This document shows positions 3,574-51,354 of a stretch of 64,000 nt of DNA, piece after piece. The translations under genes and the position numbers were made by a program. Under the pieces are notes generated by a model. That model saw only the letters and a list, made by a program, of their open reading frames with translations. It was not told where the DNA came from and searched no databases. The DNA is taken from the NCBI GenBank assembly GCA_015069015.1, contig SVJK01000004.1, positions 1-64,000 on the forward strand, written 5' to 3'. The first letter of the stretch is position 1, and each line of letters starts with the position of its first letter. This DNA is from Oscillospiraceae bacterium. GTDB lineage: Bacteria > Bacillota > Clostridia > UMGS1810.

Positions 3574-4404
3574 ATGTTCAATTGCGAAAAAATTTCAATA
3601 AAAGAAATAAACTACATATTCCGTAAATCCGATGATCCAAACACTCCTCATATGAAATTTCCCACAGCCAATTTTTCAAATTATGAGTTGATTTATAAAC
3701 TCAGCGGAGATGTTTTGGTTCACTACGGTGACAAAACCCAACGGGAGCGCGCAGGGGATATCAGATTCATTCCGCCCTCAACTGATAAAGAAGAGCATCC
3801 GGGCTATAGAGTGGACATTACAGAACCTGCCGAAGGCATTATTGTAGGATTCACCTCTGATTCACAGCTTCCCCATGAAATGATTGTGAAGAATTTTTCG
3901 AAGAATAGTCACATAAAAAACTTATTCATTCAGGCAGAGAAACTGTGGATTTGCAAAAAAGGCGGATGCTACTATAATGTCATGTCTGTTCTGTATGAAA
4001 TTCTTGCAGAAATTTTTGCTGATAATTACCAATATGCCGATTCTTCAAAATTTGAGATAATAAAGCCTGCTGTTGACTATCTTGATGAACATTTTTTTGA
4101 GAATGATATAAATTATAAGAGTCTCTGTGAAATGTGCGGAATAAGTTATAAATATATGTCGACACTTTTCAAAAAGTTTCTGGGTGAATCTCCCAACAAA
4201 TATGTGATTTCCAAAAGAATAGATTTTGCCTGCGAACTTTTGGTGGGAAGATATGACTCCATTGGTGAGATAGCATACAAATGCGGATTTTGCGACGAAT
4301 ATTATTTCAGCAGAGTGTTTAAAAATCACGTGGGCGTTTCGCCGTCGGGATATGTGAAAGAAATACACCTGAAGGTGCATGAAATGAAACCTTCGGTTTC
4401 ATGA
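3574..4404 (+). CDS. AraC family transcriptional regulator (AraC1), divergent from GRE1
   Basis: C-terminal double HTH typical of AraC (CGFCDEYYFSRVFKNHVGVSPSGYVKE); last ~13 codons lie in a hairpin array. Confidence 0.9.
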   Translation: MFNCEKISIKEINYIFRKSDDPNTPHMKFPTANFSNYELIYKLSGDVLVHYGDKTQRERAGDIRFIPPSTDKEEHPGYRVDITEPAEGIIVGFTSDSQLPHEMIVKNFSKNSHIKNLFIQAEKLWICKKGGCYYNVMSVLYEILAEIFADNYQYADSSKFEIIKPAVDYLDEHFFENDINYKSLCEMCGISYKYMSTLFKKFLGESPNKYVISKRIDFACELLVGRYDSIGEIAYKCGFCDEYYFSRVFKNHVGVSPSGYVKEIHLKVHEMKPSVS

Positions 4405-4521
4405 CCATAATGAATTCCAAAGGAAATCATATCATGACAACTGCGTTGTCATTTCATGGCGGAGCCATTCATGTGCCGTATGGCACATTTCATTCGGTGA
4501 GTTTGCAAAACAAACTCACCG
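4363..4521. repeat. modular hairpin array, copy A (7 hairpins)
   Basis: Consecutive palindromes at 4363-4380, 4384-4402, 4410-4430, 4434-4452, 4456-4468, 4471-4488, 4495-4521. Same hairpins in reverse order and orientation at 50694-50957. Confidence 0.9.
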
Positions 4522-4582
4522 CAAAACTCCAATTTATTCAATTATACAATTAATGAGACAGCCCCTTCCAACCATGCATTTA

Positions 4583-36927: not shown

Positions 36928-36935
36928 ACAGATGT

Positions 36936-37036
36936 CATACAACTGACGGATTATGCAGAAATACCTGCAGGGGAGTATGACCTTTGGTAGCCGACCGTCT
37001 GGGCAGACAGAAATTGCCCTGTGGCGGCTTTTTTTT
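36936..37036 (+). ncRNA. ZTP (pfl-motif) riboswitch with terminator
   Basis: AACTGACGGA...GGGGAGTATGACC...GCCGACCGTCTGGGCA matches recalled ZTP consensus features; then TGCCC...GGCGGCTTTTTTTT, upstream of pflA. Confidence 0.85.
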
Positions 37037-50668: not shown

Positions 50669-50693
50669 CGTGGAATGATAAATGGGAGTTTAG

Positions 50694-50957
50694 CGGTGAG
50701 TTTGTTTTACAAACTCACCGAATGAAATGTGCCTTTCGGCACATGAAATGGCTCCGCCATGAAATGACAACGCAGTTGTCATGATATGAATTCCTTTGGA
50801 ATTCATTAAAGTTAAAACTCGCCAAAGCGAGTTTTTTCCATAATGTCTGCATAGCAGACATTTCATGCTGCGAAGCAGTATATCATGAAACCGAAGGTTT
50901 CATTTCATGCACCTTCAGGTGCATTTCATTCTCACTGATTGAAAATCAATCAGTGAG
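50694..50957. repeat. modular hairpin array, copy U (11 hairpins)
   Basis: Hairpins at 50694-50720, 50727-50744, 50748-50760, 50764-50782, 50786-50806, 50814-50835, 50843-50861, 50865-50881, 50885-50903, 50907-50924, 50931-50957; mostly 3-4 nt loops and 3-nt GAA/TTC/GAT/ATC linkers. Confidence 0.95.
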
Positions 50958-51354
50958 TTAAACTCTGGGTTCACAAAAACATCCCAAAAGTCGTTTTTGT
51001 CCATTGTGTCGCTAATTTCATATTGAATTGAATATTTCCCCATGATATAATAATTAATATGCTGCTTTTGCAGGATATATTTTGGAAGTATTAATTGCAA
51101 AAATCCAATGCAAAATTTCTGTAATATTTTTTATATAATCGCAAAAAAACAGTGGAAACTACATTATATTTTTTGTAAAATGAATGTGTACCTAATATCC
51201 AATGGTGCAAAATCTGTGTAAAATGTAAAAAACAGACACTTGAGATGTCAAGCAGGGACACACAACAAAACATCTCAGGCTATAGCAAATGTATAATTTG
51301 ATAGTGTATAATAATTGTAGAAAGCTGGGAAAGATAATAACCTTTATATAATAA

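Follow-up and report, generated by a model that had tools for sequence, protein, structure and literature searches.

What is an unbroken row of short hairpins, each with a different stem, and where did it come from? The question is raised by positions 50694-50957 of a 64,000-nucleotide stretch of DNA (the window) from contig SVJK01000004.1 of an Oscillospiraceae bacterium, whose draft genome assembly (GCA_015069015.1) has 2.15 Mb in 101 contigs. An earlier annotation made by a model from the letters alone (the sequence-only reading) had described the locus, and we followed it up by computational analysis of this genome and of other Clostridia.

Architecture and identity of the array

The array consists of 11 hairpins set end to end in 264 bp (Table 1). 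Ten of these are perfect (stem of at least 5 bp, loop of 3-4 nt), with stems of 5-12 bp that together cover 205 of the 264 bp, compared with a mean of 13.6 bp and a maximum of 62 bp in shuffled controls (n = 500), while the eleventh, ATGCTGC-GAA-GCAGTAT, includes a single G-T pair. The modular array of 11 hairpins described in the sequence-only reading is therefore real, and its coordinates and quoted stems were correct on recheck, but parts of its grammar need revision. The ATG/CAT boundary that it took to be constant is present in 8 of the 11 hairpins (once as ATG/TAT) and absent from the central hairpin and the two caps. The linkers are ordered by half, with (T)GAAA(T) on the left and the reverse complement ATTTCA on the right, which makes the array an inverted repeat of hairpins around the central one. 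The unit is also larger than claimed, as a terminal inverted repeat (TIR) lies outside each cap. The array is indeed not a CRISPR, as had been stated, given that the stems differ from one another, the linkers measure 3-7 nt, and near-identical direct repeats with unique spacers are absent. No ORF is present in the window copy, and when the array is folded as DNA, the plus-strand hairpins stay local, as do nearly all of those on the minus strand (about -80 kcal/mol).

Table 1. Positions of the array, its ends and related features within the window
Feature	Position	Strand	Remark
Left terminal inverted repeat of TIR/TA element, ATAAATGGGAGTTTA	50678-50692	+	one mismatch vs ATAAATTGGAGTTTA
Cap hairpin CGGTGAGTTTGT-TTT-ACAAACTCACCG	50694-50720		also in elements with other interiors
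Array hairpin 1	50727-50744		element sense is the minus strand; right half in that sense
Array hairpin 2	50748-50760		
Array hairpin 3	50764-50782		
Array hairpin 4	50786-50806		
Central hairpin AAAACTCGC-CAAA-GCGAGTTTT	50814-50835		counterpart of the hairpins bracketing the gene in the full-length relative
Array hairpin 5	50842-50862		compensatory TCTGC/GCAGA to TCAGC/GCTGA in other copies
Array hairpin 6	50865-50881		one G-T pair, retained in every copy having this hairpin
Array hairpin 7	50885-50903		
Array hairpin 8	50907-50924		compensatory changes at three pairs in other copies
Cap hairpin CTCACTGATTGA-AAA-TCAATCAGTGAG	50931-50957		compensatory changes at five pairs
Right terminal inverted repeat, degenerate	50958-50972 (about)	-	family consensus TAAACTCCAATTTA
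Rfam RF01706 Gut-1 match, three hairpins	50855-50931	-	58.8 bits, gathering score 50
Second element copy	4353-4537	-	without the central hairpin and two neighbouring hairpins

The sequence-only reading knew of no established name for such an array, but part of it matches the covariance model of a named family, Rfam Gut-1, above its gathering threshold. Gut-1 was described in 2010 as a candidate non-coding RNA from human-gut metagenomes only (PMC2864571). We found matches in 66 of 392 genomes of the class (46 genera). Gut-1 also occurs in metagenome-assembled genomes from goat, deer, buffalo and other guts and is not restricted to the human gut. The Rfam model is a three-hairpin fragment of longer arrays, and the window array belongs to this Gut-1 superfamily of arrays. 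Its linkers, (A)TGAAAT(G)/(C)ATTTCA(T), have the same core as the Gut-1 linker GUGAAAU with a different edge. Linkers are largely uniform inside an array and vary among arrays (GTGAAAT, GTGATAT, GCGATAT, GCTAAAT, etc.), so that the grammar is not confined to ATG...CAT. FasX, rsmX and TD-1 were rejected as identities, their weak Rfam matches being far below the gathering scores. In the open-access literature, the 2010 motif paper was the sole one that we found on Gut-1, and none connected hairpin arrays to four-helix-bundle genes or to tRNA ends; these absences carry little weight given the limit on access. Arrays in one other genome (G205; L186, L217 and L232) are very long and GTGATAT-linked, with up to 12 units per run, many of them identical, and have no tRNA or four-helix-bundle gene within the fetched stretch. 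Elsewhere in the window, a ZMP/ZTP riboswitch lies at 36929-37011 (Rfam RF01750, 57.6 bits).

Dispersal, ends and stem conservation

Besides these relatives in other Clostridia, the sequence-only reading had proposed looking for further copies in the genome and for compensatory change in the stems, and both exist. Array DNA has 37 matches in the source genome, with the best copies 98, 97 and 95% identical, and the array recurs about 20 times. Several copies lie at contig ends, where repeats that disrupt assembly would be expected. Entire hairpins are lost in some copies, and at some loci the left or right half stands alone. TAAATTGGAGTTTA...TAAACTCCAATTTA forms the ends of several full copies, with TA on either side, and members of the family end in TA/AATTGGAGTTTR...YAAACTCCAATT/TA, i.e. 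in terminal inverted repeats with TA flanks, of which the right TIR is degenerate in the window copy. Counts of this TIR pattern in three genus members were 14, 80 and 83, compared with zero for the reversed-pattern control, and one TIR type encloses several unrelated interiors. Where both neighbours of a copy were called by simple ORF calling, 7 pairs were converging, 7 tandem and 1 diverging. No exact empty site was found; one relative has a glmM orthologue without the array, at 70% gene identity. Contigs C29, C56 and C70 were discarded as candidate autonomous elements because they hold ordinary genes and their shared ends belong to a 178-bp element. Seven genomes of the genus contained no DDE_3 (IS630) transposase, and a search of DDE_3 in the genus and of Y1 gene neighbourhoods yielded no enzyme that moves the element.

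Some loci depart from the common form. G000:C29 (L028:1703-1880) and G001:C135 (L038:1502-1660) represent one insertion site in two species with shared outer TIR variants (AATTGGGG..., CAATTATATT) but interiors that bear no relation to each other, as though the contents of the element had been swapped. In genomes G001 and G005 (L146-L165, L141, L041 and L044), the same TA-flanked TIR surrounds GGCTCCCTT..AAGGGAGC repeats and runs of AATGAATAATG and AATGCAAAATG, and its interior is also seen there as a 52-bp single hairpin. In one array copy of the source genome (L015:1727-2114, G000:C53), two hairpins of the right half are separated by about 115 bp of foreign sequence.

Across 14 aligned copies, 97.0% of cells are paired, falling to 31-39% in slid structures, and 12 pairs are changed on both sides, compared with 2.4 ± 1.3 in shuffles (0 of 500 reaching the observed number). 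In some hairpins, the loop orientation flips between copies (AAA/TTT, GAA/TTC, AAT/ATT). Template switching could yield both the compensatory changes and the loop flips, so that covariation alone is no proof of an RNA function. The same process underlies a reading of the array as a mere MITE, with inner hairpins grown by slippage and palindromes kept by template switching without selection, which would account for entire hairpins being lost at linkers as well as for the flips and the compensatory-looking changes. It is nevertheless quite unlikely, for many Clostridia families have retained the order of hairpins, the halves, the loop type and the place upstream of a single protein family.

A four-helix-bundle protein partner and tRNA ends

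The protein family in question is PF05635/TIGR02436, the four-helix-bundle protein of 23S rRNA intervening sequences, whose genes several arrays adjoin. Among 77 named Clostridia loci selected by protein similarity only, regardless of arrays, 66 have an array within 400 bp upstream of the gene, compared with 1 of 79 downstream and 12 of 403 same-contig control windows. The array signal peaks at -300 to -50 from the gene and is near zero elsewhere, and Rfam Gut-1 itself lies upstream in 19 of 20 loci checked. The source genome has seven PF05635 matches, four of them full-length (on contigs C53, C48, C88 and C2) and all four with arrays upstream. Arrays are almost never seen at more distant PF05635 genes of the class. 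In the other direction, the gene was found within the fetched stretch at only 12 of 90 Gut-1 loci, and most arrays are therefore gene-less. In the full-length relatives, the protein scores 96 bits (vs 33.8) for PF05635, and the predicted fold (pLDDT 95) is closest to 2RLD and 2GSC (S23) and then, at low sequence identity, to Avd of diversity-generating retroelements (8UB7/4DWL). The likeness of PF05635 to Avd was noted earlier (PMC10053308). Close relatives of the protein also occur in fecal phage records MT835590.1 and MT835815.1 and in the IMG/VR viral contig L423, the last with an array upstream of the gene.

Strong promoter hexamers are present between array and gene in 27 of the 77 loci (1.8% when shuffled). 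With a small protein gene directly downstream of a repeat array, the arrangement recalls a type III toxin-antitoxin pair, in which a repeat RNA precedes a small toxin gene and solo arrays would be spare antitoxin. However, the protein is folded like S23/Avd and unlike a nuclease toxin, the array has the promoter on its downstream side, and the repeats are not identical units, all of which makes this reading exceedingly improbable. We also considered a REP/BIME-like repeat moved by a Y1 (RAYT) transposase that recognises single-stranded DNA hairpins. The short hairpins with a constant foot, the BIME-like inverted halves, the dispersed intergenic positions and the presence of RAYT-like genes in array-rich genomes would suit it, but none of the 26 Y1 loci examined is flanked by arrays, whereas four-helix-bundle genes are, and we judge it very unlikely.

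The full unit is laid out as terminator hairpin, hairpin array, promoter, S23/Avd-like gene and, often, one variable gene after it. In 62 of 80 loci, a same-strand tRNA gene lies within about 650 bp upstream, with nearly every isotype represented, and in several of the 18 loci where no tRNA was found, a contig end truncates the sequence. Of 42 tRNA junctions examined, nearly all read ...CCA, 0-3 nt, GAAAA-hairpin-TTTTC, AAYGAAAT or a variant, then the array, and similar terminator hairpins stand behind different tRNAs. Pairs of units behind differing isotypes (n = 51) align from the tRNA end (median -3 nt, scattered) to the stop codon of the four-helix-bundle gene (median -6), where the conserved unit ends, and no integrase gene is present. 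A second copy of at least the last 14 bases occurs in the same locus at 9 of 102 CCA-terminator-array junctions, compared with 0.6% (12 of 2021) in the control, as with tRNA-Gly in L361 (21 nt) and tRNA-Lys in L212 (17 nt). Downstream of the protein gene, the tRNA tail recurred only in L375 (a whole tRNA) and as two 12-nt matches. Arrays and units also neighbour tmRNA genes. Their positions are behind tRNA/tmRNA genes or intergenic; none was seen inside 23S rRNA, and no window-type array was found behind a tRNA gene.

In L310, L319, L335 and L424, behind tRNAs, AATGAATAATG-type or similar imperfect inverted repeats replace the array upstream of the four-helix-bundle gene, and this sequence type also fills TIR elements in G001 and G005. 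In L178, L180, L335 and L423, a conserved 24-27 nt (CATCTAAACCATTCGGCTCTTCCA; CTGCATCTATTATGAACGTGAAAGCCA) occupies the unit start in place of the tRNA tail and is perhaps an old tRNA or tmRNA fragment. In L375:1664-3090, a whole tRNA-Arg gene and its upstream region are duplicated 1.3 kb apart, with a unit after one copy and a different terminator after the other.

As for the variable gene, 72 of 149 four-helix-bundle genes (some loci overlap) are accompanied by an ORF that has a ribosome site before it and starts between -25 and +80 relative to the stop codon. Without duplicates, these are 67 ORFs in 54 protein clusters, 28 with a -4 overlap, and the Pfam calls include DUF4279, GNAT, HAD, MazG, pyrophosphatase and nucleotidyltransferase. 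Units also occur in tandem behind one tRNA, three in L364 and two in L359, and with this cargo they resemble a cassette array. We tentatively propose, at a little short of even confidence, that the arrays are recombination or insertion sites of an undescribed cassette system of gut Clostridia, in which hairpin arrays folded in single-stranded DNA, together with an S23/Avd-like protein and exchangeable single-gene cargo, would insert in tandem at tRNA/tmRNA 3' ends with no integrase of their own, and of which the window array may be a stripped, self-spreading derivative.

A probable DNA-level role, proposed origin of the window copy and comparison with known systems

Loop composition bears on whether the arrays act as DNA or RNA. 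Among 3-4 nt loops, TN(N)C makes up 153 of 207 in the part of the array far from the gene and GN(N)A 85 of 141 in the part near it, compared with 125 of 775 for both types combined in control hairpins, and the loop-closing pair is C-G in 344 of 397 hairpins. C-GNA-G is a very stable DNA triloop. The third base of GNNA loops is R in 91 and Y in 104, without the purine preference of RNA GNRA, and GN(N)A loops on one strand lacking that bias favour a role at the DNA level. Loop types, C-G closing and promoter position together favour it too. Mismatched pairs are more often G-T than A-C (36 vs 23), which points weakly to an RNA role; as a wobble-asymmetry test for RNA, these counts gave no clear outcome and the test was set aside.

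The array could alternatively be a structured non-coding RNA, transcribed and acting as such, in line with the filing of Gut-1 in Rfam. Its Rfam score exceeds the gathering threshold, Weinberg et al. (2010) rated Gut-1 'Y' as an RNA (PMC2864571), the stems covary, G-T is slightly above A-C among mismatches, and the RNA fold energy is about -121 kcal/mol. In full-length units, however, the terminator is upstream of the array and the promoter points away from it, so no simple transcript would run over the array. Stems and linkers vary among arrays while the palindromic form is kept, the GNRA bias is absent, and because loop orientation flips between the halves, neither strand has a single loop type. 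We regard an RNA role as unlikely on these grounds.

The origin of the window copy is illuminated by a relative that lies about 14.6 kb away on this contig, beyond the window end (G000:C2:65552-66164), in which a four-helix-bundle gene lies between two half arrays. Its gene-bracketing hairpins are TTAAGGAA[AAAATCGA..TCGATTTT] and [GAAAATCGC..GCGATTTTC]AACCATAA, and the centre of the window array on the minus strand is TTATGGAA[AAAACTCGC..GCGAGTTTT]AACTTTAA. The two match, at this one locus, over about 48 bp at 88% identity and in the central hairpin. The window array is probably a solo copy, gene-less and non-autonomous, of a mobile element built from DNA mini-hairpins. Judging from this single locus, the nested layout would have lost the gene that lay between its bracketing hairpins, so that a single central hairpin remained, and the gene-less array may then have multiplied as a MITE-like insert. 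In single-stranded DNA, each half array would fold into a series of short C-GN(N)A-G hairpins, which the four-helix-bundle protein, with its Avd fold, might hold, and the folded DNA would be the insertion substrate for an enzyme acting in trans. The picture of a modular array with Clostridia relatives drawn by the sequence-only reading stands, but the context lay beyond what that reading could see: a dispersed repeat whose full-length relatives bear four-helix-bundle genes, often behind tRNA genes.

On this reading, Gut-1 is no longer an orphan RNA motif but belongs to a widespread mobile unit. The S23/four-helix-bundle proteins, which had been known from rRNA intervening sequences with no function assigned to them, gain a constant and testable genetic partner, and tRNA ends are indicated as landing sites that a very small element uses in many uncultured gut bacteria. 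Should the cassette proposal hold, this would be a new route of single-gene exchange among gut bacteria.

Each of several known systems shares some of these features. Gut-1 (PMC2864571) shares the variable-stem hairpins and the core of the constant (G)UGAAAU linker that joins them, but is modelled in Rfam as a human-gut RNA of 77 nt and three hairpins, whereas the arrays here are longer and inverted, occur in many Clostridia genera including those of the ruminant gut, and are tied to a protein gene and tRNA ends. The 23S rRNA intervening sequences with an S23p ORF (e.g. in Coxiella, PMC4990558) are likewise small and selfish-looking, with complementary flanks, a PF05635 ORF (shared by the full-length relatives only) and insertion at stable-RNA genes; they lie inside 23S rRNA as one long stem cut by RNase III, while our units are at tRNA/tmRNA 3' ends or intergenic and have an array of short hairpins as the flank. 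Bacterial MITEs have TIRs, TA flanks, no coding capacity, high copy number and intergenic positions in common with the window element, but here the interior consists of hairpins in a set order and is related to an element that encodes a protein, the TIR encloses several unrelated interiors, and a partner transposase was not found (DDE_3, seven genomes of the genus). REP/BIME-RAYT systems share constant-foot hairpins, inverted arrangement and a repeat-linked gene, but that gene is here S23/Avd-like and not Y1, and stems differ within one array. Finally, tRNA-targeting integrative elements and integron cassettes show an exact tRNA 3' junction, occasional tail duplication, tandem units, swapped cargo and folded-DNA sites, as the units here appear to do, but our units are only about 0.6-1.2 kb, have no integrase and stand behind almost any tRNA isotype.
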